A stretch of 64,000 bases of DNA from Maylandia zebra (taxonomy: Eukaryota > Chordata > Actinopteri > Cichliformes > Cichlidae), in contig NC_135175.1 in assembly GCF_041146795.1 (NCBI RefSeq), positions 33,356,136 to 33,420,135 of the forward strand, in the 5' to 3' direction. Shown one piece after another: positions 1-37,500 of the stretch (position 1 is its first letter; the number at the start of each line of letters is the position of its first letter). Under the pieces are notes generated by a model. It saw only the letters and a program-made list of their open reading frames with translations, had not been told where the DNA came from and searched no databases. Position numbers and translations under genes: made by a program.

Positions 1-10276
<10,276 letters not shown>

Positions 10277-15327: not shown

Positions 15328-15960
15328 TATCTGGAGCCTGGAAGAGGAAAGGAGAAGCCAAGGTGCCTGGAGTCCAGTGTGAGGTTTCGATGGTGCTGAT
15401 GGTGGCAGATCAACGGGTCCGTAGTTAAAGCAGCAGCCACCTGCAGATGTCAGAGCTGCTGCCCACAGAACAAAACGATACCAGATCAACATCTCCATCA
15501 CCTCAGATTGCATTAATAACTACACCATGTTTAAATCAACCCCCCTCACTGCTCACACTGTGCTCTGAGTTTCCCTAAACCACTGCTAAGCTGAGAGTCC
15601 CTCCTCATGTTTCATGTTTCATGTTATTAGTCCGATTTTGGAGGATTGTTATTAAATATTCGTGTTTGAGGTATTAAATTGGCAGATGCAGTCATTTCCA
15701 GAAACTGGAGAGAGGAGGAGCAGCTCCACGGGGGGAGAAGTGAAAGTGAAAGTGCTGGACTCCATTTTGGAGCCGACAGAGGAGCAGAAGGAGCGAAGCA
15801 GGGTGATCTCAGCATAATGATCGTTATTCTGCTGTCAGGGTGTCTCCGTGGGTGAAGCAGGGAAGCAAAGACGGAGCTTTTCATCAGGCGGAGGATTCAA
15901 AAAGCTGTTTCACTCCCGAACCTGACACGTGTCCGTCTTTCACTCTCAGACTGAGGGAAC

Positions 15961-18900
15961 ATGAGTGATTTGGCGGAAGAAGAGGACCGAAGCTGCCGGC
16001 CTCTGAAGAGAAACCACCCCAGACCCGGAGCCTGGGATCTAAAGTAAGACCCGGTTTTCGCCCAATGCTCATGCTGCTGCACCCGGGAGGGGCATTGACG
16101 TCGACTTCAACAGCAGGAAATTAACTTTGCACAAAATTATTTTCTGCCTCTTTTTTGCCATATTTTTCAATTAACCTAAATTTGACAGCATATTAAAACT
16201 GGAAATTCTGTGTTAAGTGTGCCACCCCAATATTTTTAGTTGCCCCCATATGGCCACAAGTATGAAAAACATTCTGGTTGCATCCCTTTAATTCAGGCTC
16301 ACACGAAAGGTGGTGTTTGCCATCATTTCCCCCAGAGTGGATCGACTGACTGCCCGGTCAGAGACATTACCAGAGGAGCGGCTGATTATATAAGAGCAGA
16401 AACCAGCACGGATGCTGAATATCAGCCAAGAGAGAAATGCTGCACCGCTGCTCTGCGCTGTCCTTAATGTAACATCTGCATGTTAGAGTCCTTTGAACTT
16501 TACACTGCGGCTCAGCCTTAAACTTGATCCATTAACATTAACTCAGCGTGACGAGGAGACGTGGAAATCACTTTAGGTTGTAGACAGATTAAAATTAAAT
16601 TCTTTGACTGACACTCGAGGCCCTCCATAGATCACCGACTGTTCACAACAAATTATATAAAACACATCAGATGTTTAAACTGAAGAAAGCTACAATCTGT
16701 AAAAAAAAAAAAAAGAGCTAATTCTTCATTTGACAGCAGCAACGTGACTCTAAAGTTGCCACAGGGCCATGTTTATCCTTCTACTGTGTTCTACTATGAA
16801 TTTAAAAAGAAAATGAGAGAGATTTGTAAGTCATTCCACTTTTTTAAATGTACATTTTACAATTTGTGATTTATTCTACATTCGTGCACAGACAGAGAGC
16901 GGCGTCTCCAGGATCCGACTGGTTGTCCATGATGAGTGACATTTCCATAGAAGCCCCTCCAGACTTAAGGAATCAACCCGGACCCTCACACACAGAGTAA
17001 GACTCAGTTTGTGCTGCAAACAGAGGTGAAGGTGACTCATGCTGAAGCAGGAAGAAAACTAAGAATGCATTCCTATGAACACAGCAAAGCTTCAGTGATG
17101 AACTTGTTTAACGAGCATCAACATAAACTCATGAATAAAGGAGTTCTTGCAGTTCTGTGTGCATCTAATATAAAAAACAGGAAGGTTCCAGTTTATTATC
17201 TTTGTGTTTCCAGAGGTGGGCAGCACAGACACAGAGCAGAGTCTCCAGGATCCGACTGTTTGTCTATGAAGAGTGACTCCTCCAGGAAAGACCCTCTAAA
17301 CTTCAGCAATCAACCCGGACCCTCACACACAGAGTAAGAGACCACTTCTTCTGAGAACAGACCTGATGGTTAACTTTCAGACCGAAGAACAACGCTTTCT
17401 TATTAGTTATGAATTATTAAATCAACATTCGAGTTGTACTAAAGAAATCCTGAACTTTAGTCCAGTTAATCAGATTCTGACACAATAAGAGCAATTTGTG
17501 ATTTATTCTACATTTGTGCACAGACAGAGAGCGGCGTCTCCAGGATCCGATTATTTCTCCATGAAGAGTGACTCCTCCAGGAAAGACCCTCTAAACTTCA
17601 GCAATCAACCCGGACCCTCACACACAGAGTAAGAGACCACTTCTTCTGAGAACAGACCTGATGGTCAGCTTTCAGAGCGAAGAATGTTTTTTAAAGCAGA
17701 ACTATTAGTTCACATATATCTCTCTATTCCAGGAAACTTTTTATTGATTATATTAGATATATATTTATATTATATTTGAGTTATATCTGTCTGATAGATT
17801 ACATTTGTTCATGTAAATGAGGAGTTTTCCTCACACACACTGGAGGTTTTCTGGGATCTGTATTAGACCTGATACTTTACACCTTATAAACCCTTAAAAA
17901 ACTGCATATGCTGCAGAACTGAAGAAGCCTCTTGGATCAGAGGTGAAACATCTCCATAAAAAAACGTAAAGAAGTCCTGTTGCCTTCTCTTCAAGCTCCT
18001 AAACCTGGATGACTGAGAAACTACACATACGTTCAAAAAACCTTCTTTCTCCTGTTTTTCTGTTCACGTGGCTGCAGACACATCTGGTCAGCGCCCAAAC
18101 TGAGATAAAATTCAAAATGAGGAGTTATTTACTGGTTTGAGGATGTTGTCCTTGTACTGTAGTGTAAAGGGGATTGAGCTGATTTATATTTGACACAGTT
18201 TTAGAGCTGTTGGTGCGAGCTATAGACCCACCTCACACCTTTTTTTTGCCTAAGGTCTTTGAAAAAGTTGTTTTTAAGCAGCCTGCTGAGCATCTGTCAA
18301 CAAACAATCTGTTTGAGCCATTTCAGTCTGTTTTTAGACCAAATCACTCCACAGAAACGGCCTTAATCAAAGTGGTAAACGATTTGTTGGTGAATGCAGA
18401 CAATGATCACACTTTACTTTTATTACTTTAATGATCTAAGGCTGCCTTTGACACTATGGATCCCTGTATTTTATTGCATAGGCTAGAACATTTTATTGGA
18501 GTTACAGAAATATTTTTGTTATCGTGGCTGAGATCCTACCTGTCTTAAAAATGATCTCTCTGTGACCTGTGCAGTCAGGCATGTTTATGTCCGACAATAT
18601 TTTCACGGACCGGCCTTTAAGGTGTCACGGATAAATACAACAAAATGAAACCAGTACTGGTACCAAAAAAAACGAAGATTTTTTCATAAGACACAGGAAA
18701 AGACCCAGGGAAACCAAGTAACCCATAAAAATGATAACAAATGGCGATAAAAACACTGAAAACCATAAATTTCACACCCGAGCCTCAACTCTCGCAGCCC
18801 GAGACCAAATGACTCACGGACTGGTACCGGTCCCTGGCCCGGGGGTTGGGGACCGCTGCTTTAGTCCTTTTAATCTGATTCTGACACAATAAGAGCAATT

Positions 18901-21900
18901 TGTGATTTATTCTACATTCGTGCACAGACAGAGCGCGGCGTCTCCAGGATCCGACTGGTTGTCCATGATGAGTGACATTTCCATAGAAGCCCCTCCAGAC
19001 TTAAGGAATCAACCTGGACCCTCACACACAGAGTAAGACTCAGTTTGTGCTGTAAACAGAGGTGAAGGTGACTCATGCTGAAGCAGGAAGAAAACTTAGA
19101 ATGCATTCCTATGAACACAGCAAAGCTTCAGTGATGAACTTGTTTAACGAGCATCAACATAAACTCATGAATAAAGGAGTTCTTGCAGTTCTGTGTGCAT
19201 CTAATATAAAAACAGGAAGGTTCCAGTTTATTATCTTTGTGTTTCCAGAGGTGGGCAGCACAGACACAGAGTGGCATCTTCAGTATCCGACTGGCTGTCT
19301 ATGAAGAGTGACATATCCAGAGATGCCCCTCCAGACTTAAGGAATCAACCCGGACCCTCACACACAAAGTAAGAGACCGCTTCTTCTGAGAACAGACCTG
19401 ATGGTTAACTTTCAGACCGAAGAACAACGCTTTCTTAAGCAGAACTATTAGATCACATATATCGCTCTATTCTAGGAAACTACTTATTGATTTAAAAACT
19501 GGGTTTATAAGGTATAACACAGTCGTGTATTCCAGCCCTAACCATGACCTTAATCGTGTTAGGTAGTATTTTCCAAAGCGATTTAGGTAGAATAAACGTA
19601 CATGTGTGGATTCATTCTAAATGGTTATATTGTTTCCACATTTTTCTGAACTTGTAACATAGGGACATGTTGGGTGGCCAAAGTGTAATATACAGACGAT
19701 TTGTCAGCTAGCGTAAAATGTTATGCTTTGGGAGTGAGAACATGTTGCTAAACTACCATGACCTGGATGACTGAGAAACTACACATACGTTCAATCAGAT
19801 ACTCACTCGAAATAAAAACTTTCTTTCTCCTGTTTTTCTGTTCACGTGGCTGCAGACACATCTGGTCAGCGCCCAAACTGAGATAAAATTCAAAATGAGG
19901 AGTTATTTTACCAGTTTGAGGATGTTGTCTTTGTACTGTGATGTAAAGAGGATTGAGCTGATCTCCATTTTACACAGTTTTACAGCAGTTTAGGTAAAAG
20001 TGTTTTGACTTCCACAGTTTAAAATGCTAATCTACAATTAACACTGGAAAAAAGAAAACAGAGGTGTGTATCCCAAGTTATCTGTTGATATATTTTAACT
20101 CCATTCTTTATAAAGCACAGCACTACATATGCAGCTGTGAGGTTTTAGTATCATGATGCATGGGAACATTCAGGTTTTACTAAAGAAATCCTGAACTTTA
20201 GTCCACTTAATCTGATTCTGACACAATAAGAGCAATTTGTGATTTATTCTACATTCGTGCACAGACAGAGAGCGGCGTCTCCAGGATCCGACTGGTTGTC
20301 CATGATGAGTGACATTTCCATAGAAGCCCCTCCAGACTTAAGGAATCAACCTGGACCCTCACACACAGAGTAAGACTCAGTTTGTGCTGTAAACAGAGGT
20401 GAAGGTGACTCATGTTGAAGCAGGAAGAAAACTAAGAATGCATTCCTATGAACACAGCAAAGCTTCAGTGATGAACTTGTTTAACGAGCATCAACATAAA
20501 CTCATGAATAAAGGAGTTCTTGCAGTTCTTTGTGCATCTAATATAAAAAACAGGAAGGTTCCAGTTTATTATCTTTGTGTTTCCAGAGGTGGGCAGCACA
20601 GACACAGAGTGGCATCTTCAGTATCCGACTGGCTGTCTATGAAGAGTGACATATCCAGAGATGCCCCTCCAGACTTAAGGAATCAACCCGGACCCTCACA
20701 CACAAAGTAAGAGACCGCTTCTTCTCTAAATAGTTGTTAATGTTAATTACAACACAGAGCTGTTGACATTTATTTGTCCATTGTCCAATCGTATTAGCAA
20801 ACTGTCTAAGCTTTTACTTTTATAGAGATGTTCACATTTGATTATTCAATGAAGGGCATTTGTTTGGAAGCCCCTAGATGATACGTGCCCTCCTAATCGC
20901 TATGGAAGCAGTAAGGGTGCACTTAGATTTTCAAAGGTCCTGTGAAAACATTATTTTCATTGTTATCGCATACACAAAGCAGGATGCAATTCACTTATGT
21001 CTCCAAGACATAAAGGCCTGAATGTAACTTTTCTCCTGATACATTCTGACTTTTTAGTTTGGTCTACTAGTCTTTTGCTAAAGCTTAGTCGTCCTGTCGG
21101 TATACAAACTGTAGTTTGGCCTTTTTAAAAACTTATTGTCTCAGCTGCAGCATATATTGTCCTAAAAGCTACTATCCAGCATTAATGGTGCTTTAACAGA
21201 TGTGGAAGTTACCCATGCACAGATGCACTATTGCAGCTGTGCTCCGGTGCACTGATAAAAAGCCAGAGGGTTCCTCTGCTCTGTAGCAGGGACCATAGCG
21301 TCAGTGATTGGTCAGACTGTACAATAGTTTTTGATTTTCTTTCAATAATCCTGCCAAATCAAAACCAATAACATAAAGCTGTCGGTGAGGGTATTAGCAT
21401 TAGGGCACATGGATGACTTTACTAATCATTACCTCATTTACATGTGTGATTCTGTTAAAGCAGAAATAAAACAGAGGTGTTGTATTTAAATATGATTCAA
21501 TAATGATATTTTTCTGTAAGCCAGCATGTTATTAAACTTTGATATTTATGACACTTCTGCAGACAGTGCTTCACTTCATGCAGGGACTGGTCTGCTTCAT
21601 CAAAGCTGCCCTCCTGGCACCACTCAGGAACCACAGCTGGAGTCCAGACAGCCAGTCCGAGCAGCTTGATACCAAGTAAGACTGAACATCTATTTGCTGG
21701 TAGCTTCATTTCTGAAAACTGGAGTTTATCTTCTTGTTCAGACATTTAAGAGTTTTCTTATATTGTGTTTTCCTTCTTTTCAGTTGATGGTGGTTTGCAG
21801 GAGGTTTTAGATCATCATAAGCTCATACTGAAGAGGAAATGTGAACGTGTGACTGAAGGAACTCATGAAACCGAAGGAACCCTCCTCAACAGGATCTACA

Positions 21901-24900
21901 CTGAGCTCTACATCACGGAGGGGCGGCCTGAAGATGTGAACACGCAGCATGAGGTGAGGCAGCTTGAGACACCTTCCAAGAACACCCACCAGGACACTCC
22001 AATCAAGTGCCATGAGATCTTTAAAGCCTTACCTGACCAACAAACAGATATCCGAGTCGTTCTGACAAATGGCATCGCTGGAGTTGGGAAGACCTTCTCG
22101 GTTCAGAAGTTCACTCTGGACTGGGCAGAGGGCTTGGAAAACCAAGACATTAATGTGGTGGTTCTGCTCTCATTCAGAGAGCTGAACCTGATACGAGATG
22201 AGCAGTACAGTCTTCTGGAGCTGCTCCACGTTTTCCATCCAACATTAAAGAAGGTCACAGCGGAGAACCTGGATCTCTGTAAACTTTTGCTCATCTTTGA
22301 TGGCCTGGATGAAAGCAGACTTTCACTGGATTTCACCATAACAAAGATCATATCAGATGTCACACAGAAGTCATCAGTCTGTGAGCTGCTGACAAACCTC
22401 ATCGAGGGGAGTCTGCTTCGCTCGGCTCTCATCTGGATAACTTCCAGACCTGCAGCAGCCAATCTGATCCCTTCTAGATATGTCGACAGGGTCACAGAAG
22501 TACGTGGATTCACGGATGAGCAGAAGGAGGAGTACTTCAGGAAGAGACTGAGTGATGAAGAACGGTCCAGTAGAGTCATCTCCCACATCAAGTCATCTAG
22601 GAGCCTCCACATCATGTGTAGAATCCCAGTCTTCTGCTGGATCACCGCTACAGTCCTTGAAGACATGTTGACTACAGAGCAGAGGGAAGAGCTGCCCAAG
22701 ACCCTGACGGATATGTACTCACACTTCCTTCTTGTTCAGATGAAGAGAAAGAAGCACAAATATCATGAGGGACAAGAGATGGCAGAGGAGGTAGCAGAGG
22801 CTGATCGGGAGGTTCTTCTGAAGCTGGGAAGGCTGGCATACAAACATTTGGAGAACGGAAGCATCATGTTCTACCAAGAAGACCTGGAGAAGTGTGGTCT
22901 GGATCCCGATGAGGCCTTGGTGTATTCAGGGGTTTGTACAGAAATCTTCAAAAGAGAGTGTGTGATCTTCGAGAAACCAGTCTACTGCTTTGTTCATCTG
23001 AGCATTCAGGAGTTTCTGGCTGCCGTCTACATGTTTCACTGTTACACTAACAAGGACATAGAGGTGTTGAAGCAATTCCCAGGGACAAAGTGGGACAACA
23101 CAAACAGTGACACATCTCTGGATGTCTTTCTGAGCAGAGTCATGGACAAGTCCCTCAAAAGTAAAAATGGCCACTTGGATCTGTTTGTTCGTTTCCTTCA
23201 TGGCCTCACTCTGGAATCCAACCAGAAAATCTTAGGAAGTCTGCTGGGCAAGGCAGAGATCACTCCAGAAATCATCCAGAGAACCGTTAACAGCCTCAAG
23301 GAGAAGAAAACAAAAATCGCCCCCGACAGAAGCATCAACATCTTCCACTGCCTGATAGAGATGAATGACCTCTCGGTATCTCAGGAGATCCAAGAGTTCC
23401 TGAGGTCAGAAAACAGATCAGAGAAGGAGCTCTCTGAGATCCACTGCTCAGCTCTGGCCTACATGCTGCAGATGTCAGAGGAGGTTCTGGAGGAGCTTGA
23501 CTTGAAGAGGTACAAGACATCACTGGAGGGACGACTGAGATTGATCCCAGCTGTGAGAAACTGCAGAAAGGCTCGGTAAGTCCAGGTGGAAATTTCTTTT
23601 GGAGTCAAACGTAGTATTTGACTCTACCAGTGTATCATTTGGTACCGATATGAAACTAACGGGAGTATGTTCAGTAAGTTCAACTCCATAAAAAGTAGAC
23701 AAAAGCCGTGTCCAAATTCATGGGCTGCATCCTCCTGAGGACCCGGCCTTTGCAGTCTACGTGGGCCAGGTCCTTCGAAGGCCGGGTAGGCCAGAAGTGA
23801 GCGAACTTTAATCTCAGCCAAACCAATTAACTTACGAACTAATAAAACACTGAAAAAAGCCAAACAATAACATTTTTAAATTATCTAAGTAACTTATGTT
23901 TAACCTGAGTAGCGAAAGACCACCCTGGGTTTGAAAACGAGTTTGCTGTTCTCGCCAGCTCTAGTGAGCCTTGAACCCCGGCTAGCTATCGAGCTGGTGG
24001 GTAACAGATGTCTCAGAAAACGTCGGAGCACTTTTACAAATATGTGATATCTTAAAAAACTGAGCAGATATTAGAAGTTTACACAGCGACATTCTCACCT
24101 GAAAATATCTTAAAAGTTTATTTTGTGACCCAGAAAGACTAATAATAAAACTTAGTAACGGCCACCATTGTTGGAAATTGGAATTGGCTGGGCCGCACTA
24201 TGAATTCTGGGATATGGTGGGCCACAAAGGATACACCCAACCCATCCTTCAAATCTGGGGAAAAGGAGGATGGATTTGTCGGCCTCATTTGTCGGAGTCT
24301 ACGACTTTAGACAGCCTTTGTCACATCGCTGTGACGCAATCGGCCAACAAATGCGGCCTCAGGAGGATGCAGCCCATGAATTTGAAGAAGCCCAAAGTCA
24401 CATTAAATGCAGTGGACAATAACATTTTCCTGGAAAAGATGGCCTCTCGATATCTTTGGGGAATCTGATGTGGGAGTGTAGCAGACTGCGGACTGTATGG
24501 GGTCTATAAATGTATTGTAACACATTTTGTTGTATGTGTATTAATGTGTGTGACAGACTCCCTGGCTGTGAGCTCTCAGATACTCACTGTGAAGTCGTGG
24601 CCTCAGCCCTGAAGTCCAGACCCTCCCACCTGGTACATCTGGACCTGAGTGGAAACTACCTGAAAGACCCAGGAATGGAGCTGCTGACTGGTGGACTCAA
24701 AAGTCACAACTGTAAACTAGAGTTTCTGAAGTCAGTTCATACTTTAAATTCAAAAAATAATAATAATTCTTCCCCCAAGTGTTCAGTGATCAGATTTTCA
24801 CAAACATATAATTTAATATCTAATATCTCAATATGTTTATGACTAACGCTAATGACTATAGATGCGTATTTGAATCTACAAAGAGTCTGAACTCGTCTTT

Positions 24901-26346
24901 TCCTGCTGAAGATCGAGCCAAATCCAAATCCAAGCTCATCAATAACATAGTTTGACTCTCAGGCCTGTTTAATAAAAGGTTTGAGATTGTGAACACTAAA
25001 TGTTCTCAACTAGGAGTTTAAACTGTTTTGTTCTGTGTCCAGTTTGAGTTCATGCAGGTTGTCAGAGACCAGCTGTGATTCTCTGGTCCGTGCGCTCATG
25101 TCCAACCCCTCCCATCTGAGAGAGCTCGACCTGAGTGACAATAAGCTGCACGATTCAGGAGTGGAGCTGCTTTGTGTTTTTCTGGAGAGTCCAGATTGTC
25201 GACTGGAGGCTCTGAGGTCAGAGTTTTCTTTTATTCTGGTTTCCTGCTTTTCAGTTGATGGCGGTTTGCAGGATTAGGAAATGTTAACACACTTAAAACC
25301 TAAAATACGATTTGATTGTAAAATATGTTATTTAGGTGATCTTTATTTTTCATTTAGGTTGAGGATCTGCAGATTGTCATCCTACAGTTGTAGTTTTCTG
25401 GTCTCTGCTCTCAAGTCCAACCCCTCATATCTGAGGGAGCTGGACCTGTCTGGAAACAACAAGCTGAAGGATGATGGTGTGGACTACCTGTGTGATTTTC
25501 TGGGCAGTCCAGACTGTAGGCTGGAGATTCTAAAGTCAGTCAACATTTTTCTTTTCCACTTCCTCAGTTTGAATCACTGCATCTATTTGCCTTTATTATT
25601 TTGTTTTTGCGTTGCAGTTTTCTAAACTTCTCTATGTTAAATTTTCTTCTTCTCTGAACACATTATTATCAAACACCTAACTTTGTGAAGTGGGAGTTTG
25701 TTTTTCTAAACCTGTTTTATTTTTTATTCAGACTGTGGGAATGCAGATTGACGAGGTACAGCTGCCATCCTCTGGTCTTAGCGTTGAAGTCGAACCCCTC
25801 CCATTTGAGAGAGCTGGACATGAGCAACAACTACTTGAAGAATTATGACGTGACAGCACTGATTGATCTTCAGAAGAATCCAGACTACAGACTGGAGACG
25901 TTCAGGTCAGTAGGAGGTTGTTATTAATCTGCTTCAGCCTCACCAATCAGCCTGTCATAGAAGTCCCCTCCTCATGATCTCCCCTTTATAGATTCTATGG
26001 CCTTCAGGGCACTTTTCTAAATATTCAACATTAAATTTGTCTTGAGTGAAATCTGCTGAGAAAAAAAGACTTGAATCCATTGAATTCAAATTTATTTATG
26101 TCGCATCAAATCATAACATCAGTCGCCTCAAGGCATTTTATGTTGTATGGTAGCAACCCCTCTGTAATACAAGCATGCAAGTCTTTGAACTCAGCATGCT
26201 TAAGGAAACATGAGCGCTGAGGAAGCTGCTATGCTGCTCATGTGCTGCATCAGTGACTGACAGCTGACTGCGTGAGTCTCTGTAAACACTAACTTATCAC
26301 CTCAATTGTTTCTCTTTTCAGGTGGGAGTCACCGATGCGTAAGTGA
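15961..26346 (+). CDS. Fish-type NLR (FISNA-NACHT-LRR, NLRC3-like), 15 coding exons
   Basis: Exons: 15961-16043, 16892-16996, 17214-17333, 17524-17628, 18928-19032, 19249-19368, 20265-20369, 20587-20706, 21563-21675, 21784-23575, 24557-24730, 25043-25216, 25358-25534, 25732-25905 and 26322-26346. They join without a break to 3492 nt, 1163 residues plus stop. Order: an acidic start [19 protein letters not shown], seven short repeats with an SP-G-SD-L/F-SM-SD core (about 28-288), a linker exon, FISNA (about 340-390), NACHT with Walker A GIAGVGKT (422-429) and Walker [11 protein letters not shown] (493-502), four LRR exons, and a short tail WESPMRK. There is no B30.2 domain. Known: this large fish-specific NLR-C family acts as cytosolic sensors or regulators of innate immunity. 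The ligand cannot be inferred. The ATG choice fits the usual MSD-acidic start; the 21563-21675 exon is called from phase alone. It could be a functional gene or a recent, untested family member. Confidence 0.85.
18200..18580 (+). mobile_element. Non-LTR retrotransposon reverse-transcriptase fragment (L2/CR1/Rex1-like)
   Basis: The plus strand encodes [11 protein letters not shown], then [15 protein letters not shown] and [18 protein letters not shown], the conserved N-terminal part of CR1/L2-group reverse transcriptases. The frame is broken after about 18430, although the AFDT-type region can still be followed in other frames. It lies in the NLR intron between the 17524 and 18928 exons and is absent from the matching place in the duplicated unit near 19990. 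Confidence 0.75.
18575..18865. mobile_element. hAT (Charlie-type) non-autonomous fragment
   Basis: The stretch ends GGCCCGGGGGTTGGGGACCG followed by CTGCT and contains 'cacggaccggcc' near its start and 'cacggactggtaccggtccc' near its end. This is the typical look of hAT-Charlie-like elements whose ends read CAGTGGTCCCCAACC. No coding capacity. It directly abuts the retrotransposon fragment in the NLR intron. Confidence 0.5.
21784..23575 (+). CDS. FISNA-NACHT exon of the NLR gene
   Basis: This single 1792-nt exon enters in phase 1 (split codon, then [12 protein letters not shown]) and leaves in phase 2 (CG, donor gtaag). It holds the fish-specific NACHT-associated domain ([14 protein letters not shown]), Walker A, Walker B, the sensor-like region [27 protein letters not shown], the ARC and winged-helix region ([32 protein letters not shown]) and the start of the LRR linker. 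The usual Cys after GLDE in these proteins is Ser here (GLDESR), from memory of the family. An in-frame ATG upstream at 21765 is in the intron and is not the start. Confidence 0.93.
23713..24384. mobile_element. MITE with 28-bp perfect terminal inverted repeats
   Basis: Positions 23713-23740 and 24357-24384 are exact inverted copies of each other over 28 bp (core ATGGGCTGCATCCTCCTGAGG, cut here to CTGCATCCTCCTGAGG). The roughly 670-bp element has no transposase-like frame. It lies in the NLR intron between the NACHT exon and the first LRR exon. The superfamily is unclear; a clean target-site duplication was not identified. Confidence 0.7.
24557..25905 (+). CDS. Four leucine-rich-repeat exons of the NLR gene
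   Basis: Exons 24557-24730, 25043-25216, 25358-25534 and 25732-25905 are 174, 174, 177 and 174 nt and all phase 2-2, the standard unit of fish NLR LRRs. The first three carry the ribonuclease-inhibitor type pattern (CxLS, LxxALxSxPSxLxxLDLSxN, GxxLL). The third has one extra codon (SGNNKLKD). The fourth is worn: [19 protein letters not shown] lacks the D-GV-LL pattern. Confidence 0.9.
26083..26175 (+). repeat. Dispersed teleost repeat, short copy
   Basis: 'aaatttatttatgtcgc', 'cagtcgcctcaaggca' and 'ttttatgttgtatgg' match the start of the repeat found more fully at 26610-26835, 36741-36905 and 43826-43990. It lies in the last NLR intron. Confidence 0.6.
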
Positions 26347-26609
26347 ACGTATGTCCTCGTGTGCAGAGACGCTCTGATTGTGGCCATATTGTTGGGACGT
26401 AGACATTCATCCAGCAGCGACTGACAGAAGAGTGAGAGGAAGTGTAGATGATTGTCAGCGCTGCAGAGTGGACTGCACCGTTTTCAGAAACCAAACCTTC
26501 TACACAGGCTGCGATACACTGGGATCCTTTCTAAAGCTCCTCCGTTAACCCTCTTTGGAAATCCAGTCTGGGATCAAATCCACCGTTTGTACATTTCTTC
26601 AAAAGAATA

Positions 26610-26835
26610 TTCAAATCAATTTTATTTATATAACACCAAATCGCAACAACAGTTGCCTCATGGTGTTTTATATTGTAAGGTAAAGACCCTACAATAATAC
26701 AAAGAGAACAGAGAAAAACCCCAACGATCAGATGACCCCCTATGAGCAAGCGCTTTGGTGACAGTGGGAAGAAAAACTTACTTTTAACAGGAAGAAACCT
26801 CCAGCAGAACCAGGCTCAGGGAGGGGCGGGGTCCC
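26610..26835 (+). repeat. Dispersed teleost repeat (long copy)
   Basis: Recognisable landmarks in order are 'attttatttatataacacc', 'acagttgcctcatggtg', 'gaccccctatgagcaagcg', 'ttggtgacagtgggaag', 'aggaagaaacctccagcaga' and 'caggctcagggagggg'. I know this as one of the most common interspersed repeats of teleosts. It probably lies in the NLR 3' UTR or just downstream. Confidence 0.75.
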
Positions 26836-27187
26836 CGAACACTGTTTATCTTGGCCTATCTCCCACCAACATATATGACTATATTTGTCAATAAATAAAG
26901 TATTAGCTGCACAAATCCCGCCCAGTAACTCCGGTGCCTTAGTGACTCACTCTCTTCCTGATTGGTGGCATCATTCAAATCCCGCCCAGTAACAGCTGCA
27001 GGTCTCAGGACGACTGGGTGACAGTAGACAGATGATGCGATGATTAGAGATGTGATTTTATAGAACGTGTTTGTTGCTGTTGTTTGCATTTAGCTCTGTG
27101 ATAATGATGGCTGATAAATGTTTACTTATTTCATGGTCTGCGGCCTTTTAAAAACAAAAATCTGATCTGAAAGAACCTTTAACTTTA

Positions 27188-27240
27188 AACAAATTTCCCA
27201 CGCATGGGACTAATAAAGGTTATCTTATCTTATCTTATGT
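27188..27240 (+). repeat. Non-LTR retrotransposon 3' tail with TCTTA microsatellite
   Basis: 'aaatttcccacgcatggg' followed by 'actaataaaggtta' and TCTTATCTTATCTTA is the typical 3' end of fish L2-type elements, which terminate in short tandem repeats. Confidence 0.55.
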
Positions 27241-30165
27241 CAGGTGACTTTGCTGGGATAACAAACTAAAATAAACTTAAAATACCAAATCAGCCCGTCA
27301 CACATCTTGTATGTAGCGTGGTTCAAAACTGACATAACCAGGTCACCTGTCTCAGCTCCGTTAAGGTGGACTGTCCTGTGGTGCTGTGAACTCTGCAGAG
27401 CACTACAATACACAATGTTTACAAACACCAGTATCAGTTTATCAGAAACACCAGTATCTGTACTTTTAAATTTTTTGCCTTTATTGAATAGTGAAGACAG
27501 ACAGAAAGCAGAGAGACACACAACAAACGGCCACAGGTCAGACTTGAACCCAGGCACTGCATCTGTACTTTCACTTTCACTGTTTTTTTACTGTTAAAGC
27601 AAAAAATTATCTGCACTCTCCCACCAGAGTAAATTTATTTTTGCAATAAGAGTTAAAAGTAAACATAATAAGAAAGAAAACAGTAGTAGTAGCAGAAATG
27701 TGCTCACAGTGCTGCAGTATTTAACAGGGCCCACCTGTTATAAATGCCAAAAGCTGGGTGTGTGGAAGCTTGTTCCTGCCACTGAAAAAACTTGTTTTCC
27801 ACATCAGTAAGTCACAATTTCAGTTTATGGTTAGAGTTCAAAGTGTTTTTGTTGTCAGTTTATAATTTTCTCAGTGTTTCGAGTCTGAGCCCAACCTGAA
27901 CTGTAATTTCAAGTTTGATAATAACCTGAAAATTTGACTTACAGATGGAAAAAAGGGAGGAAACATGCATCGTTTTTGTTGATATTGTTGTTGTTTTGTC
28001 TTTCACTGATGTTAAATAACCGTTACCACAGTCACCTACTGACTGTGTTTTATTGTATTACCTCTGACAACCTGTTTTGTGTCTCTTTGTTTCTTGATGC
28101 TCGTTTGTGCCTTCAATATAAAAATGTTAAAATACACGACACAGCCCAGACTCAATAACCCTCATCCACAAATACATTTTTCTAGACGATCAAATTCAGA
28201 TTAATAGTGCTCCAATGGGACTACACATAGAAAACAGCAGAAAAATGTGCATGGACGTTTAAAAAACCCAACATCAGTAAAGAAAGAACATCTGGTTGCT
28301 GTAGTTGGGTTTGGCTGCAAGATAAATATGTTTTCATTAGATTTAAAGCCATTTTTGATAACATGCATTATTATTGCTGTAAAAATGTGCACAAACAGTC
28401 ACGAGCAGCTGCTGGATGGAGGAAAATATTATGAACTCTACCTGATTAACATCTAACCGAAAGAAGAAATTTTTTTTCAAAAGCTGCCTACTTTGGCTTC
28501 ACCTGCTGTGGGGATGCCAACAGCTCGTCTCCTGTCATCTTTCACCAACATGGTGCTACAGACTAAAGTTAGAAACACAGCTTGCATCAGAAGATGCTTG
28601 ACCAGTAGCAGAGGCAGCTAGTCCTGTTTGCTGAGGTGATGGAGGAATGAGCCAGTCGAGCTCCAGGTGTCACACGAGGCCTCCGTAAACAGGCTGTTAA
28701 AAGCTGTTTTTAAAATGGGAAACAACCTTTTTTATGTGAATGCAGCCAAATGTCGACTTTATATTTATCTTTGTAGTTTTTACAGCATTTAAGTGCAAAG
28801 CATAAATGTATGTTTACACTACACCTGTCATTTGAATAAAAAATAATTTCACAGAACGTGAACCTCAGGAGCGTTTTATTGTGAAAGATGCAATATTTAG
28901 CTTATGTCAACTGAGATGAGATTTGTCGTTTGTTGGCTTTTTGTCTGCTTGTTGCTCTCAATTAATTTTTTTTATTAAAGAAATGTTTTTAAAAACTTGC
29001 AAAATAAAAAAACTGTGACACATGAAGCACCTTGTAAACCCCCTTCAGTATAAAAACTCATCCACACTCACTTTCCAGGGTAAAAATGTGAACAGAAAAC
29101 AGCAGCGCTAAGAATCAGTGGCATTTCCCTTTAATGCAATGTTGCAGGCAAAAAATGAAATCACCACAGCAAAGAACAAAAATGCAAAAAAATTAACACA
29201 GCAAACCTGCGATTTCACTGCATTTCAATTAAAAAGAAGAAAAACTAAAACGCTTCATAACACAGCTCGTTGCATCTCTTTTCAGTGTTATGCAGCAAAC
29301 TCAGTTCATATTCGAATGATTTTCACCTCCTGTAAGATAAAACGTACAGTTATGACAGGATGAGTTTAAAATAACATTTGAAAGGTTTCGGCTCCTGCAA
29401 CGAGTGAGCTCTGTGGCAATTTAATTACACACGGCCGGCTCTTTAAAAGCCACATTTTAGCCTCGAAAAGAGTTTTATGCTTGATTTAGTGTTGATGCAT
29501 ATTTCAGTACAAACTTCACAAACGCAGTTAAGACTGTAACATTTCATTGGTTTCCAATGTGTGGCCAGAGTCCACTAAAAGAGTCCTACATTGAGTATTC
29601 AGGGACCATTAATGCTAATTATCTGTATTCCTGTTACACAAAGTTATGTGTATTTTAAAGTTTTTTGGGTCTTTTTAAATATTTGTAGCTTTTTCACCTT
29701 GGAAAGCTCCTTCAGAAAAGGTATAACACATACTCAACGAAAAAGGCAAATGAACAGCTTTGAATCTGTCTTCTGTCGTAACTTCTTGAGGTCAGCTGAC
29801 CAGTGTTTTTGGCAGCAATAAACATGACAGTTTACTTATTTTAATTTAAGACATGTTTTATTTTAATTAAGTTTAAAACTTTTTTATTTAATGTAAAATT
29901 ATATTTTGTTTTAATTTACTTTGAAATTCTTCAGTTGCTGAATGGGCTGCATAGTTTTCATAAATAGCTATAATTGTACCAGATGGTTGCATTCAGTTAA
30001 GTTGGACTAGACTGTAATACAAACCGTTCAGTTTGTCAACAATAAAACTGACTGAAATGAGAGAAAGACTGAGTGTGAGACTTTGTTATTAGATAAAATG
30101 AATATTGATAAAGTTTACCTTTATGGACAGAATCTGAATATCGCAAAATATTTTAAAAAATTGCA

Positions 30166-30235
30166 ATAATATCGTATCGTGCGTTAAGTATTGTGATAAT
30201 ATCGTATCGTGGGATGTATGGTGATTCCCACCTCT
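30166..30235. repeat. ATATCGTATCGTG-type repeat fragment
   Basis: Two copies of AATATCGTATCGTG lie about 30 bp apart, followed by 'gtgattcccacctct'. This pattern is familiar from fish interspersed repeats; the family is not identified. Confidence 0.4.
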
Positions 30236-30552
30236 ATTATATGGACGCCTGTGCTGATTCTGACCGTTTCCTGGACGTTTTTCTTTGAGACAAGTTTTTT
30301 GTCCCGTTTCATCAACTACGATTATCCTTAATTGAAAATAAAGGAAGGGAATTCAAATAAATCTTAGACACTTCTACTTAAACAGTAACATGTTTGGTCA
30401 TTAACTGCACACACACAAAAAAGGTTTTCTAACTGTTAGGGGAAAAGTTTTTCTGCCCAAAGTTCAGTTCAGATGCATAAAATGTGGGATTTGACCCTGA
30501 CGTCTGTGAGCCGCTTCACTCGAACACGAAGCTAAACGGTGAGTCTGGAGCG

Positions 30553-31662
30553 TCAGAAGTCGGAGTCGTCTGTCGCCGAGTTATCAGCACCGGCGGAGAC
30601 TTCAAAAGTCTGCAGGCGGCTTTCATTAGCCTTCTGCTCAGTCATCTTCTTCTTGTTGTGGTTTCTGATGTGCACGCTCAGACCGCGCTCAGTCATTTCG
30701 TAGATCTGACACTTGGCGCAGTAGTACGGCGACACCCCGACGTGCCGGAACTGGTCGGCGAGGTACGACACGAGCGTCTTGAAGCCTTTGTTGCAGATGT
30801 CACAGCGTGGGATAACACCTGGATGCTCCTTCTCCAGGTGCTTCTTCAGGCCCCACCTGGACCCTTTGAACCCCTTCTTCTCCTCCGTGCCGGCTTCCTC
30901 CTCGGCTGCGCAGAGGCGGCAGACGAACACGGCGTCCTGGTTGGCGTGGCGCCTCGTGTGCGCGTCGAGCTCGATCTGAGTGCGGAGTGACTGCTGGCAG
31001 GAGTTGCAGAAGAACGTCTTCTTCCCCTCCATGTGGTGCATCTGCTTTAAATGCACCGCCAGCCCAGACGCCCTCTTGAAAAGCTTACCGGGCGGCGGGC
31101 ACATCGTGCACACCAGTTTCTTACCTGAGCCCGAGTTCATCTCCATCACATCGCTGTAATCCTCTCCCAGCGCCAGCACGCTCGTATTGCTCACCGTGAA
31201 CTCTTCGCTTTTGATCTCCTCTTCCTCGGTTACCAACCTCCTCTTCTGGCTCACCTGAGGTCGCAACCTCGCCGGTCTAGACGGCAGCAGAGCTCCGGGG
31301 TTCTCGCTGACCACCGGAGTTTTAACAATCGGCTCTTTCGCTGGGAGCGACCGATCTACGGACATCGTGAACTGGTAACTCTCCCCCTCCTCTTCAGGGT
31401 TTGAATACTCGATGACGTAGACGCCGTCATCGTCATCCTCTCCCACGACCTCGTCCTCTGCAGGCAGCGAGCACTCCACCTCGTAGAACACCTTCCCGTC
31501 AACGTGTGACTCCTCTTCAGCGATGTGAGTGTCGTCTATTCTCACGACTGTTATCTGGTCCATCCCACCGGCGCCATCCCAGTTTTTGTTTCCGGCCATG
31601 ACCGAGGATGATGATGCTTTTCCTGCACCTCCGCTTTGAACGGTCGACTGCTTGGAAGCCGT
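30553..31662 (-). CDS. Unassigned C2H2 zinc-finger protein, last exon
   Basis: The minus-strand exon starts after a clear acceptor (ctcctttcag) at 31663. It runs to TGA at 30555-30553. The first good ATG is at 31599 (MAGNKNWDGAGG), giving 348 residues. If an upstream exon is coding, translation could cross the splice site in phase 0 (TASKQSTVQ). The N-terminal half is acidic and without known domains (AEEESHVDGKVFYEVE, GEDDDDGVYVIEY). The C-terminal half has about five C2H2-like fingers: CTMC..HLKQMHH, CNSC..HTRRH, CRLC (long insert)..HLEKEH, CDIC..RH and CAKC..HIRNH. Two fingers have non-standard loops. Probably a nuclear DNA-binding protein; the family is not recognised. No repeat-like decay is seen, so it is likely functional. 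Confidence 0.75.
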   Translation of the reverse strand, partial: TASKQSTVQSGGAGKASSSSVMAGNKNWDGAGGMDQITVVRIDDTHIAEEESHVDGKVFYEVECSLPAEDEVVGEDDDDGVYVIEYSNPEEEGESYQFTMSVDRSLPAKEPIVKTPVVSENPGALLPSRPARLRPQVSQKRRLVTEEEEIKSEEFTVSNTSVLALGEDYSDVMEMNSGSGKKLVCTMCPPPGKLFKRASGLAVHLKQMHHMEGKKTFFCNSCQQSLRTQIELDAHTRRHANQDAVFVCRLCAAEEEAGTEEKKGFKGSRWGLKKHLEKEHPGVIPRCDICNKGFKTLVSYLADQFRHVGVSPYYCAKCQIYEMTERGLSVHIRNHNKKKMTEQKANESRLQTFEVSAGADNSATDDSDF

Positions 31663-31783
31663 CTGAAAGGAGAAAAATGTATTACATACGCAGCAAACAG
31701 ATAAAATACTACAGAATGAAGGCATAAAAAGTCTTTCTGAGATATATCAATAAATCAATACCATATACACAGTATTTCCTGAC

Positions 31784-31885
31784 AGTAAATATTGGTTTGT
31801 GACTGGCGTCCTCGTTCTGCTCGGCGTGGCAGCTCATGAAACAATCCTCCACCTGCATCACATCCTGGTTAGAGAGCAGCTCCAT
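31784..31885 (-). CDS. Possible upstream coding exon of the zinc-finger gene
   Basis: On the minus strand, after an acceptor-like tract (ttctgctctttgag), 34 codons from ATG at 31885 read MELLSNQDVMQVEDC and on to SHKPIFT. They would splice in phase 0 to the 31662 acceptor. The donor (ACT, then gtcagg) is weak. If used, the protein would start here and be longer than 348 residues. Confidence 0.3.
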
Positions 31886-34400
31886 CTCAAAGAGCAGAAC
31901 AAGGACTAACATCACCCAAGACGGTGAAGTCAAAGTCAGTCTGACCACAGGATCAGAGTCTGGCAGTCACAGCAAAAGCACTCTGATCAGCCTATTGTTG
32001 GAAAAACGGGAGACAGGAAGGGCCGATGCAAGTTTGTCAATAGTGAATCAACTTTCAAAATAAGAGCATATGGGAATATGTGATAGTGAACTGACTGAGA
32101 TGCTGTCTGAAATTGATAAAACAATAAAAATAAATCTCAAAACACACCTGAGTGGTGTGCTAGCTTGGAACATGCTGGACTCATAACAGATCATTTTGTG
32201 TGGAAGAATACTCCTATAATGTGTGAAAGGCCCCTTTATATGAGAGCGCACTCAGAGCCTCAAGGACAAAGTCTGGTTTAGCAGAGAAAGTCGATAACTG
32301 CCCTTGTGACACCCCTCATCTCTGACTCGGGGTTTATAGGTAAACTTTCTTCATCCCTCTGGGCGGCCCACCAAAGTCTACGTGTGAAAAACACTTAACA
32401 TTTATTCATAAATACTAAATATTATCCAAGTTTTATTTTTGTTTGGAGTGACCAGGATGGAAAGACTTAGAAATAAAAAGATCAGAAGGAGAAGTTAGAC
32501 ACACGAGCCTGAGGTGGTTTGGACATGTGCAAAGGAGGAGAAAGGATGTTGAAGATGGAGCTGCAAGGGAGGAGGAAGAGAGGAAGACCTCAGAGAAGAA
32601 TCATGGATGTAGTGGAGGAGGACATGCAGGCAGTTGGTGACACAAAGGAAGATCCCAGGGATGGGGTGGGATGGAGCAGCTGAAAGATGTAGGTCTGCAC
32701 GGTGATGGAGCTGAATTTGAGTAAAAGCAGTTCCACTCAGCAGGAAATATATTATTAATTAATGATTAATGAATATTAATATTACATGTCCAGGTATTTG
32801 TTCGTAGTTTTTATCTGTACATGCTTGTATGCTACTCATTCATTGATGCAGGTATGCATTAACATATAAATAGACAATAAACAAGAGAATTATTGTTCAT
32901 AATACAATTATTATATTATTATATACATGTACAATAACTACTTGTATTATTTACAAAATCTGTAATTGTGTTTATTATGTCAAATAATCATTTGTGATTA
33001 CAGTAAGTATTTTACTGTTTATTTATGTAACTGCACAGCTCTTGCCCATAATTCATGCAATTGCCATTAAGACCATTTTTTCTATTATAATATTTTAATT
33101 TTCACATACATGTAGATTATATAAGCTACTATTATAATTTTTCATTATAATTTTGTATTCCTTTTTTATAAGTGCACGTTTAAATGTTTATTTTGATCAT
33201 TCCTGTTATAACAAGACTTCCATTCAAAATGTTCTGTTTTAAGTAGAAGTGAGACGTGAGCAGCGATACTTCACATTTTAACGAAACATTTTTTCTCTAA
33301 TAAATAATCCGCCACGACCTATTTTTCTGCTCAAGTCTTTTCTGTTTATTCTTTTAAATAACAGCAAGAATAGAGTCAACATTCAGCACGACCCTGCAGC
33401 CGAAGTCAGCCATCACAACCATTAGCTTAGCAACGAACAGCTAATCAGTAGATAGAGGCAGCTCTGAGGTTCAGATTTCTCCACTATGAACTAGTTGGCT
33501 CTTTAACATTAAAGGAAAAGAGTTGAACTGCATGCACAAATGTTCAGGTACAGCTAATCGTTCACCTTTAATCGATGCAGATGGTCAGATTTCCTGCAGA
33601 AAGCTAGCTGAGCCACAAAAAGAAAACACACAAAAAGACGTGTGTTTTCTTTCAGGACAAACTAACGAGCTGAAAACACATGACAGAGCGCCCCCTGGAG
33701 CCCTGGATGTACTTTAAAAGTACCAGCAGTCAGCGAAAAACAGTTCAGTAAAAAACTGTACAACAGAACGATATTGTACGATAAGATACAAGTTACCCTA
33801 GAAGGGACTCAGTTACGTGTAAACTAATAAATAAAGTCACATAAAATGAGCTTAACAAGTTAAAATGTCATATAATAATAAATATAAAAAAATAAACATT
33901 TGTAATTTAGTAAGGAGCTCGGGGTAAATTTAAAAATAACAATTAAATTAAAATGGAATAAAAATGAGTAAAGGAAACAACAGAATAGCCCTCAACATTA
34001 AAAAAAATCAATAAAAAACTAAAAGAAGATTGGAAATAAAATACAATAAAATTTAATAAAATATAATTTTAAAAAAATCATAATTTAATTCGTGAAGAAG
34101 CTCCACAGGTTAAGGTACATGTAAGAAAAATATTGAAATAATGTTTTTATAAAATAAAATAAAACGTAAGAATGTGAATATAAATCAATACATTAATAGC
34201 TGAAGAAAATAAAACAGCCACAATAAAAATGTTTTTAACTGTATGATAATAATGTAAAAATTGAACATAAGCAATAAGAATTACTACTACTACGGTACTT
34301 TTACATTTATTAGAGGTGAATTTCGTCACTGTTGCTTCTTTACTGAAAGAAGCGCTTTGTCTCTGTAACAATGCCCTGTTCCAATAAAGTACTGAGGTTT
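31886..34400. other. Intergenic DNA between zinc-finger gene and eif1ax
   Basis: Very AT-rich, especially 32740-33220 and 33830-34300, with one retrotransposon remnant. The zinc-finger promoter should lie in its first part on the minus strand, but I see no distinctive promoter motif. No coding exon is seen. Confidence 0.5.
32494..32690 (+). mobile_element. Decayed non-LTR retrotransposon, C-terminal coding remnant
   Basis: The plus strand reads LRWFGHVQRRRKDVED, then, after a shift of frame, GRRKRGRPQRRIMDVVEEDM. This is the well-known end of RTE-like retrotransposon polyproteins in fish. One frameshift and the short length make it a dead fragment. Confidence 0.7.
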
Positions 34401-34414
34401 TGAATATCCTGGTC

Positions 34415-34426
34415 TGCGCATGCGCA
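34415..34426. promoter_or_regulatory. NRF1-type palindrome in the eif1ax promoter
   Basis: The perfect 12-bp palindrome TGCGCATGCGCA lies about 150 bp upstream of the eif1ax ATG, in a locally CG-containing stretch followed by pyrimidine-rich DNA (tgctttctctgcattc) suited to a TATA-less start. NRF1 sites of this form are typical of housekeeping promoters. Confidence 0.55.
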
Positions 34427-34573
34427 CTTCTGATGAGTGATTCGACGCTGAGTAGCTAGCATCTCGTCAGATCTGTGCTTTCTCTGCATTCGCTCACTTC
34501 TCGTGAACAGTTATTGTTTAACAGCTGGTCATTTCTACCGAGCGGAACTACCGTGACCGAGGCGTGAAAGAAT

Positions 34574-37500
34574 ATGCCCAAAAATAAAGGTAAGGCTAGC
34601 GGGAAGCCATCCGTTAGCGACGAGTTTCAGTTGATTGTGTCGGAGCCCGCCGCGGACACACGCAGCTAAAACGTGACACCGACCGGCTGCTGCTAGTTAG
34701 CCCCGCGGAGCCTCGTTTACACGACCGTTAGCGTGGTATACGTGATGTTTACCCTCTCTGTTTGGTTCTATGCGGGGTAACTGTGAATTTAGGAGAAATC
34801 TAATAAAGTTCTCCTTCTCCGTTAACGATTGAGCTAACCTGATTACTGGTGTAGTCCGCTGCTAACTATTACAGCTAACCAGCTAGCTTCTACCTAGTTA
34901 CCCCACCCGGGCCGGCCCGTAATATCCGCCTCCAATTTCCACCAATATTCAGCCCTTTAAAACACCAGAGTGTCTTTATACTGGGTTCTAAACTATTCTT
35001 CAGATGGTATTGTAGCGTTTGGACGATGTTACGACCCTTAACATAAAGGTTAGCTCCTCTTTCTGTCCGGTTCCCCTTTCAGAGAGAAGCTCACACAGGC
35101 GTTGAAATTAATGTCATCTCTGCTGTGTACCACGATAAAACGCCAGTTTGGATAACTGAAATTGAACCATTCACACGTACTTAAAACAAGGTGTCAGTGT
35201 TGTCTTGTTTAGCAGAAGTTTCTGGTGTTTCTAGTCATTTTTGTTCCGTTGCTAAACAAAAAGCTGCCTTAAGCTTGATTAAATTTAACTCCACTCAAGC
35301 CAACCTGATGAAATCTTAGTATTGGTGTTTTTCCATTTAATTGTTGGTTGATTGTTTATGGCGCCAAAATTATTTATATGTACGTTTAAAAAAACAAAAC
35401 AGTGAAATTGACACAAACCACTAATGTATTTCTGCTTGTTTCTGTTTACAGGTAAAGGAGGTAAAAATCGGCGACGTGGAAAGAACGAAAATGAGTCTGA
35501 GAAGAGGGAGCTGGTGTTCAAGGAGGATGGACAGGGTGAGTGTGGGTTCAGTTTATTCTGTTTGTGGGTTAGAAGAGTTGCCTTCACCTCCGAGCTAAGC
35601 AAGTATGCAAGTATTGCTTGCACAATATAATGCTGTTCACAGAAAGGAGCGCCTTACAGAAAATTGTCAGGTAAACAAAACACTGACAACATTATAGCAC
35701 TGACGCATTTACGTGTTCAAAAAGGAGTAGGACGAAGTATAAACTTATTCATAAGGTCTAGGATTAAGTGTCACTGCATGTCCTTAACAAACAGTAATTT
35801 AGTGTGTTTGATGTGAGTGGGATGAAGAGTGAACTATTAAGGTTTTAAAGTATGTCTCAGTTAAAATACAGTGTTTCTTATTATGGGAAAATAAAATTGA
35901 GTTACACAAAGGAGAGTGATGAGTAAAATACAAAATAAAATGTAATAAATGTAAAAAAAATAATTAAACCTTTTAAATGAATGAAACAAAGTGCTGTTTA
36001 AAAAGCTGCATATTATTGGATAAGTTGGGTCTGTAGAGTGAGCTCGTTAAATTCAATAAAACAGAATAAAAAGTGCCTCCCTAAAACAAATACGTCACAT
36101 ACTAAAAGTGTAGTGGTCAGTGTATGAAGAAGAAAAGTTATTTAAATAGTAATAATAAAAGTTTGTTCTAGTGTTAGTTTACTGTATCAGCTGTAAAACA
36201 CAGTTACACAGAGCTATGTTTCACTATATTATGTCTCTCTCTCTTTTTCCTTTTTTTTTTTTAGCATCTGCAAATAAAAAAATGTTCTCAATAACTTGAA
36301 ATCAAAATGAAGACATGATATAAAAAATTTTAAATGCTTTGGCGAAACCTGAATATCATCTAAACGTTTAGAAAGTAACAGGATGAATACAAAAAGACAA
36401 AAATAAATTTAAGGAGGAAAAAAAATCCCAATTGTAAGTTGGGCACAGTTTTAAGAATTGTAAACGAGTGTCATAGCTCATCGTTCATGTTAGAACTACT
36501 TAAATCTCTAAGATTGAAATGTAATCTTTCAGTCTAATCTAATCAGTTTTATCCAAACAAAAAAATGCTTGAAGTTTTCAGTCCTGTGCTTGCATATGTG
36601 ACAATTATTTGATGGTAAATCAAATATTTGCTTAAAAAATGTCTCGTTAAGCTGTGAGGATTTAAAATATCAGCTGTAGTTGATGAGCAGACAGTCAAAA
36701 CACACCAGCTCCCCAGCCTGCAGGTGTCATTTAACTCATATCAATTTAATTTTGTTTGTATAGCACCAATTCACACCAACAGTTGCGTCAAGGCGCTTTA
36801 AGGTAAAGACCCCACAGCATTAGAAAGAAACCCCAACTTTTACATGACCTACTATAAACAAACATTTGGTGACAGTGGGAAGGAAAAACTCCCTTTTATC
36901 AGAAGGCAAGGATTTAAGAGCAGTGATGTTTAGAGCGCTGGATGACTGAGGGGTTTACCGGCTTTACTGGATCTTCAGCTTAGAAGTGTCAGGATCCAGC
37001 TGGAGCTGCTCAAAAATTCACTGCTCAAATCCGGATGTAACAACCTTCTGAGGAGCAGGTTTAAAAACAAATTAAAATTTAAAGTTAAACATTGCAATCA
37101 CTGGATGATCTATCTTGTGTCATTATGCCATTCACAAATATTTATGGCTGGATCCACTCCCTACAGCCTCGGTGCATGTGTCACTGATCCTGCCAGACCT
37201 GGATCAGAGAATCAGGGACCTCCTGGACAGTCTGGTGCTATTTGGAAGCATGGGTACAGAACACTTCAGAGGTTCTGATGAAGGTGTGGGTCAGTTCTGC
37301 CTTCATCATTCAAGAACTGTTCTGTACCAGGAAGAACCCAAAGCACCAGGATAGGATTGCAGTCATTCTGGAGTGTGTTTCAGGCTTCAGACTCTCACGT
37401 CTGTCGCATGTGCTCAGTGTGAACAGTTTGTTCAGAAACATGCACAGGAGTGACCTGCAAAGCAGCACATACTGTTCCTGCTGTTATCTACAGCTTTGTC

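Follow-up and report, generated by a model that had tools for sequence, protein, structure and literature searches.

We analysed a 64,000-nt stretch of the Maylandia zebra genome (contig NC_135175.1, positions 33,356,136 to 33,420,135 of the forward strand; hereafter, the window) that contains a predicted fish NLR gene with seven small repeat exons upstream of its FISNA-NACHT exon. The array was probably formed by tandem duplication of a pair of exons, one of type A and one of type B, to four units, with one pair fused into a single exon (E3) and the exon cores turned into a patchwork, and it would encode a flexible N-terminal arm. Two features, the hybrid character of E3 and a discordance between exons and their flanks, suggest recombination within exons in addition to pair duplication; both were overlooked in the initial annotation of this region, which had been made from the sequence alone. 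Many fish-specific NLRs lack a recognised N-terminal effector domain, and a repeated peptide is found in that place.

The repeat exons and the introns that matter for the argument are located in the window as follows.

16892..16996, + strand: E1, A-type repeat exon (105 nt, phase 2-2)
16997..17213, + strand: A-to-B intron of pair 1 (217 nt)
17214..17333, + strand: E2, B-type repeat exon (120 nt, phase 2-2)
17524..17628, + strand: E3, putative hybrid exon with an A-type acceptor side and a B-type (E2-like) donor side (105 nt, phase 2-2)
17629..18927, + strand: B-to-A intron after E3, with inserted DNA (1299 nt)
18928..19032, + strand: E4, A-type repeat exon (105 nt, phase 2-2)
19033..19248, + strand: A-to-B intron of pair 3
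19249..19368, + strand: E5, B-type repeat exon (120 nt, phase 2-2)
20265..20369, + strand: E6, A-type repeat exon (105 nt, phase 2-2)
20370..20586, + strand: A-to-B intron of pair 4
20587..20706, + strand: E7, B-type repeat exon (120 nt, phase 2-2)

The order of the seven exons (105-120-105-105-120-105-120 nt, at 16892-20706), as well as AG/GT splice sites and phase 2-2 in 7/7, agreed with the initial annotation, as did the start-to-start spacings of 322 nt (E1-E2), 321 nt (E4-E5) and 322 nt (E6-E7). Each unit encodes 35 or 40 residues, as had also been described, and the array adds about 260 residues to the N-terminal part of the protein. The reading frame is kept by every unit, the hybrid included. 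When the 64 kb were searched with a nucleotide profile of the seven exons, seven strong matches came up (E values of 2.2e-31 or below), every one of them within this gene. No further degenerate units stood above noise in the window, the next profile matches having E values of 3.5 or worse.

The repeat unit is the pair, consisting of an A exon, an intron of 216-217 nt and a B exon. Pairs 1, 3 and 4 were 98-99% identical outside the B exon: their A exons differed at 1-2 of 105 positions, and their A-to-B introns had 2-3 mismatches over 216-217 nt and one 1-nt gap. E5 and E7 were identical over all 120 nt, and pairs 3 and 4 were 98.7% identical over 529 nt, with the match of pair 4 to pair 3 ending abruptly at 20725, 19 nt past E7. 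The near-identity of pairs 1, 3 and 4 bears out the earlier proposal that the exon pair was what had been amplified. The same proposal had called the introns nearly identical, which holds for the three A-to-B introns; the B-to-A introns (190, 1299 and 896 nt) are unlike each other. The two long ones had common stretches that were 85-87% identical, or 97% at the 3' end, and differed in the remainder. Likewise, the array had been described as recent, and this fits three of the four units, which are about 1% apart, with the E2 exon excepted. A candidate observation that B-to-A introns diverge more than A-to-B introns within the same unit pairs was dropped, as the long comparison involves the E3 unit and as the stretch of this intron in which pairs 1 and 3 are comparable, its initial 69 nt, differed at a single site. 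Part of the intron after E3 (18252-18551) had a weak match to RVT_1 (E 0.021, below cut-off) and is possibly a retroelement remnant.

At the peptide level, 17 columns were invariant across the seven units. The SP-G-SD-LSM-SD core that had been attributed to all units was not found in every one of them, with E3 reading YFSM and E5 and E7 reading SSVSD. The repeat exons matched no Pfam family above cut-off. The repeat region contains 18.8% Ser and 11.9% Pro, and a hydropathy-charge test placed the repeats on the disordered side (0.375, with the line at 0.422) and the control, the FISNA-NACHT exon, on the folded side (0.465). The units would thus form a flexible Ser/Pro-rich arm of seven similar peptides where other NLRs have PYD or CARD. 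Such an arm might serve as a multivalent docking or scaffolding segment, with its valency changed by exon gain, loss or skipping; as the peptide array takes the place of an effector domain, multivalent partner binding could occur once the NACHT parts assemble.

A possibility that we regard as less likely is that the array is neutral baggage, in which symmetric exons amplify and the arm has no specific role. The repeat number varied from 2 to 10 between the genes that we read in this genome, the repeat has no Pfam family, and no function for such repeats was found in the available portions of the fish NLR literature, all of which would be compatible with neutrality. Against it, 7/7 units are open with intact splice sites, as are the nine later repeat exons of a longer array in another NLR gene (on contig C24, see below), and 17 columns have stayed invariant over seven units, though recent copying explains part of this.

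The exon cores gave a different picture from the DNA around them. Compared with E5 (and E7), E2 differed at 20 of 120 exon sites, whereas pairs 1 and 3 differed at only 5 of 372 sites in their A exon, intron and near flanks taken together (Fisher p 2.6e-9). Counting exon positions from 0, the differences between E2 and E5 were confined to the segment from index 8 through intron +11, which is preceded by 64 identical bases and followed by 58. The proportion of differing synonymous sites (pS) between E2 and E5 was 0.21 (about 5 of 23), compared to 2/216 in the adjoining intron (p 1e-4), and there were about 14 nonsynonymous differences on 79 sites.

These nonsynonymous differences, together with changes private to E5 at indices 8-31 that lack a known donor, could be taken as a sign that the B cores diverged through positive selection on point mutations and not through recombination. 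We consider this unlikely. Synonymous sites were raised as well, which is unexpected under selection on the protein, and point selection on the protein is therefore insufficient to explain the pattern. The sharp edges of the E2/E5 differences (index 8 and intron +11) and the identity of E5 and E1 at indices 61-102 also argue against it. In that segment E5 and E7 showed no difference from E1 and a single one from E4 and E6 (at index 87), and their likeness to E1 contrasted with that at indices 0-60 (p 0.013).

Recombination was also suggested by sites polarised with an outgroup, which consisted of 21 distinct paralog cores chosen from 38 matches by a fixed residue pattern. Bases derived relative to this outgroup were common to the A exons and E5 at indices 30, 62 and 75, and to E2 and E3 at indices 57, 58 and 68. 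In a tree of the 5' part of the core (24 nt), E3 grouped with the A exons (support 0.73); in a tree of the 3' part (48 nt), E3 was identical to E2 and apart from a group of A exons with E5/E7 (support 0.82). The shared derived sites and the discordant trees fit short exchanges inside the array, which would have moved pieces between exons and left the A, B and hybrid cores a patchwork. Import of the E2 or E5 core from another NLR gene was considered as well and was not supported, as the matches listed outside this gene were 69-79% identical to the E4-E5 pair at the DNA level and 41-63% identical to the E2 peptide.

Conflicting ancestry was found for E3, whose flanks, exon parts and trees pointed to different origins for different parts of one unit. 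The 69 bases upstream of E3 differed from those of E4 at 4/69 sites and from those of E6 at 3/69, but from those of the B units at 45-47/69. Inside the exon, the last A-type site lies at index 36, and the B-type sites run uninterrupted from index 41: over indices 41-104, E3 differed from E2 at 0/64 sites, from the A units at 12-13/64 and from E5/E7 at 12/64. The 54 bases downstream differed from those of E2 at 3/54 sites, from those of E5 at 4/54 and from those of the A units at 24/54. E2 and E3 were identical over 105 unbroken nt, from index 37 to intron +37. E3 had been treated as an ordinary member of the 105-nt class; judged from these comparisons, it looks instead like an A/B hybrid with the switch inside the exon, and is most simply a fused fourth pair. 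The fusion would have occurred by recombination between homologous A and B cores, removing one A-to-B step (approximately 322 nt) and leaving the frame intact. E3 may thus be a readable record of how such arrays can change without breaking the protein.

Alternatively, E3 could be an ancestral single-exon unit from which the A-B pair was derived later by internal duplication, without any fusion. E3 combines an A-type acceptor flank with a B-type donor flank, which would be expected of such an exon, and in several paralog regions the repeat exons were not closely paired. Yet E2 and E3 are identical over 105 nt, while the E3 acceptor flank has 3-4 differences per 69 nt from its counterparts at E4 and E6, a combination that is better explained by a later exchange or fusion. 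Paralogs also contain both long (B-like) and short (A-like) exons, so that the two forms may predate this array. We therefore find an ancestral E3 rather improbable. An assembly artefact, with one pair written several times, is hardly credible in spite of the identity of E5 and E7 over 120 nt and of pairs 3 and 4 at 98.7% over 529 nt, given that each pair has its own substitutions, that the B-to-A introns differ in length and inserts, that pair 4 abruptly ceases to match pair 3 at 20725, that E2 and E3 are unlike the others and that a haplotype duplicate would bring its flanks along.

Several observations weigh against the proposed history of pair duplication, fusion and exchange, or against the arm that would result from it. 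On exon sites alone, the A-then-B order in E3 was modestly significant (permutation p 0.038; 17 sites in 4 runs), since index 30, which lies within the A part, is B-like; E3 also carries three private changes. The upstream flank of E3 differed from that of E1 at 29/69 sites and its downstream flank from that of E7 at 22/54, comparisons that are uninformative because the homology spans only 32 and 19 nt, respectively. The A-like character of the 3' part of E5 is based on five informative sites (indices 62, 68, 70, 75 and 78), and the tree supports are low, the trees being based on 24 and 48 nt. For the private changes of E5, neither a donor within the array nor a close match elsewhere was found, and exchange therefore does not account for the whole excess of differences in the B cores. 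With regard to the arm, the hydropathy-charge test is crude, the inclusion of all seven exons in the mRNA is an assumption and the function of the arm is one that we infer.

The gene as a whole was modelled as one open frame from ATG to stop, with 15 exons encoding 1163 residues (15961-26346, + strand). The exons outside the array are as follows.

15961..16043, + strand: E0, predicted start exon with the ATG, without the repeat core (83 nt, phase 0-2)
21563..21675, + strand: E8, linker exon without the repeat core (113 nt, phase 2 to 1)
21784..23575, + strand: E9, exon with FISNA, NACHT, winged-helix and HD2 (phase 1-2)
24557..24730, + strand: E10, LRR exon (174 nt, phase 2-2)
25043..25216, + strand: E11, LRR exon (174 nt, phase 2-2)
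25358..25534, + strand: E12, LRR exon (177 nt, phase 2-2)
25732..25905, + strand: E13, assigned to LRR by its resemblance to E10-E12 (174 nt, phase 2-2)
26322..26346, + strand: E14, predicted last coding exon, including the stop

In E9, FISNA (PF14484, E 1.9e-24) was found directly 5' of NACHT (PF05729, E 9.5e-27), both above cut-off, and NOD2_WH and NLRC4_HD2 also scored above their Pfam cut-offs. The Walker A motif of this exon is GIAGVGKT. Downstream of E9, LRR_6 (E 3.7e-14) matched three stretches in a frame common to E10-E12; E13 had no Pfam match of its own in the LRR scan. The closest solved structures were NLRP3 chains (E 5e-40). In the Pfam searches, there was no match to PYD in the first 329 residues, none to CARD in the stretches scanned and none to B30.2 (SPRY/PRY) on the + strand at 23500-40300, the last being a domain of subsets of the family, which permits its absence. 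The FISNA, NACHT, NOD2_WH, NLRC4_HD2 and LRR_6 matches confirm the fish NLR identity that had been proposed earlier, and the gene is apparently an intact teleost NLR-C with FISNA-NACHT-LRR architecture, as judged from its predicted domains. The first residues of E0 somewhat resemble those of the start exons of paralogs, which carry the repeat core; the core may have been lost from E0 or replaced.

In a search of the 962-Mb genome with the large exon as query, 73 of 595 candidate places were scored, the gene itself included. As at least 72 other FISNA-NACHT exons were scored, the gene is one of the large teleost NLR-C family. The best of the other FISNA-NACHT exons scored was 80% identical to E9, and an internal stop was present in 1 of the 73 scored places. 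Pattern matches to E9 in contigs of prokaryotes (23) and viruses (5) included no genuine relative.

The repeat exon itself belongs to what the searches indicate is a large family in this genome. When pair 3 (E4-E5) was used in a DNA search, 32 places were listed: the four units of this gene and 28 elsewhere, the latter with 69-79% identity over 66-208 nt and none above 79%. With the E2 peptide as query, 150 of 354 candidate places were scored; seven belong to this gene, and the other 143 were 41-63% identical. Among the matches listed, the amplification of this particular A-B pair appears to be private to this gene. Repeats were counted in five other upstream regions (6 kb each, except for 4 kb on C33, a stretch that did not reach its NACHT exon), with start exons that have the repeat core included in the counts: four on C25, two on C3 (one of them weak), two on C9 (at 36.45 Mb), four on C11 and two on C33. 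The repeat number thus differs between NLR genes of the one assembly analysed, with 2-4 in these five regions, seven here and ten on C24. Seven places on C2 and C33 had paired repeat-exon matches exactly 363 nt apart, among the matches listed in the E2 peptide search, a spacing that hints at an additional conserved pair of exons in a different NLR subgroup.

The C24 array (C24:3847910-3865769) comprises a start exon with the core and nine 120-nt repeat exons, ten repeat exons altogether. Of the nine, five share one sequence, and three share another that departs from it at 8 sites; the ninth exon is 5 and 11 sites away from these two types. For the most part the types alternate, and the peptide of the ninth exon mixes features of both. 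Blocks of 1.5-6.4 kb in this array were 98.7-99.8% identical, with two 684-nt blocks at 95.6 and 98.0%. On the same strand downstream lies a FISNA-NACHT exon that is 67% identical to E9. The two genes are alike in having phase-2 120-nt repeat exons of one family and two main types, followed by FISNA-NACHT; they differ in that the C24 array is longer and apparently younger. Because of its near-identical blocks, the C24 array is more open to assembly error than the array in the window, and it is a candidate for either very recent amplification or such an error.

It is conceivable, though doubtful, that fish NLR exon arrays behave as coding minisatellites of whole exons in at least two independent NLRs. 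Amplification and fusion of pairs and exchange within exons would then be rapid enough for the number and order of units to differ between individuals and to tune signalling valency, with the introns homogenised and the cores kept diverse. This gene and the C24 array offer clean material for work on N-terminal repeats, as their units can be counted, removed in frame and traced through populations.

Arrays of this architecture have been described before. In zebrafish NLR-C proteins, N-terminal peptide repeats of about 30 residues are encoded one per exon, in two main types and in variable number (PMC4852459, PMC11192531; statements on the papers cited here refer to the portions of their text that were available). 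According to Howe and colleagues, these repeats are extensively duplicated in groups 2b and 3b, and exons have been shuffled between genes (PMC4852459); gene conversion in the zebrafish family was described for the NACHT and B30.2 exons (PMC4852459). Since variable one-per-exon N-terminal repeats are published, the array architecture is not new, and the novelty claimed for it initially was too strong, although the accompanying remark that related repeats are known in fish NLRs was correct. Undefined N-terminal 'X' domains have also been mentioned (PMC2268669); the available text of that paper and of PMC10648357 contained nothing on peptide repeats as such. Pairwise amplification, a hybrid exon or exchange inside repeat exons was not found in the main-text passages and search listings available from the fish NLR literature. 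A search under narrow terms returned no literature on chimeric exons or exon arrays, and a text search for the peptide SMKSD returned no NLR paper among the results listed. The array is therefore best seen as a well-readable case of N-terminal repeat evolution in an ordinary member of a large known family.

Zebrafish NLR-B30.2/NLR-C genes and the gene analysed here are alike in their FISNA-NACHT-LRR order and in the one-per-exon repeats of two types upstream of FISNA. This likeness is one of architecture, with repeat sequences compared only within the present genome. The repeat-bearing groups of zebrafish are groups 2-4, whereas this gene has the Walker A motif of group 1 (GIAGVGKT); it does not belong to group 1 either, as that motif is present but a PYD match is absent from the first 329 residues. 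Compared with the NLR-C groups of the round goby (PMC6988351), the large exon closes with a sequence that agrees with the patterns given for groups 3 and 6, that of group 6 being L(I/V)P(A/V)VRNCRKA. Goby group 6 is without PYD and B30.2 (PMC6988351), and neither domain was found in this gene. The gene falls outside group 6 by its Walker A motif, which is GVAGVGKT in group 6 and GIAGIGKT in group 3 (PMC6988351). With a Walker A motif of group 1 and a large-exon end of groups 3 and 6, the gene fits no published group in full. No mention of N-terminal repeats was found in the available text of the goby paper (PMC6988351).

Other features of the window were of less consequence. A match to AANNGAAANNGAAA was located at 15738..15751 (+ strand), approximately 210 nt 5' of the ATG. 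By its consensus, this motif is like the binding site of interferon regulatory factors (IRF) or the interferon-stimulated response element (ISRE). The consensus had two matches in the window, compared to a mean of 0.50 in shuffled sequences, and 12 of 100 shuffles reached two; an IRF-like site would fit an inducible immune gene, for which this is weak evidence. A 397-codon open frame on the minus strand (30553-31746) had C2H2-zinc-finger-like matches below the Pfam cut-offs, and no match was listed when the whole stretch was scanned at E 0.05. The NLR gene is flanked on one side by kinase exons most similar to ribosomal protein S6 kinase alpha-3 (7648-8028) and on the other by an eIF1A-like exon (37860-38282). 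The genes for ribosomal protein S6 kinase alpha-3 and eIF1A are neighbours in mammals too.

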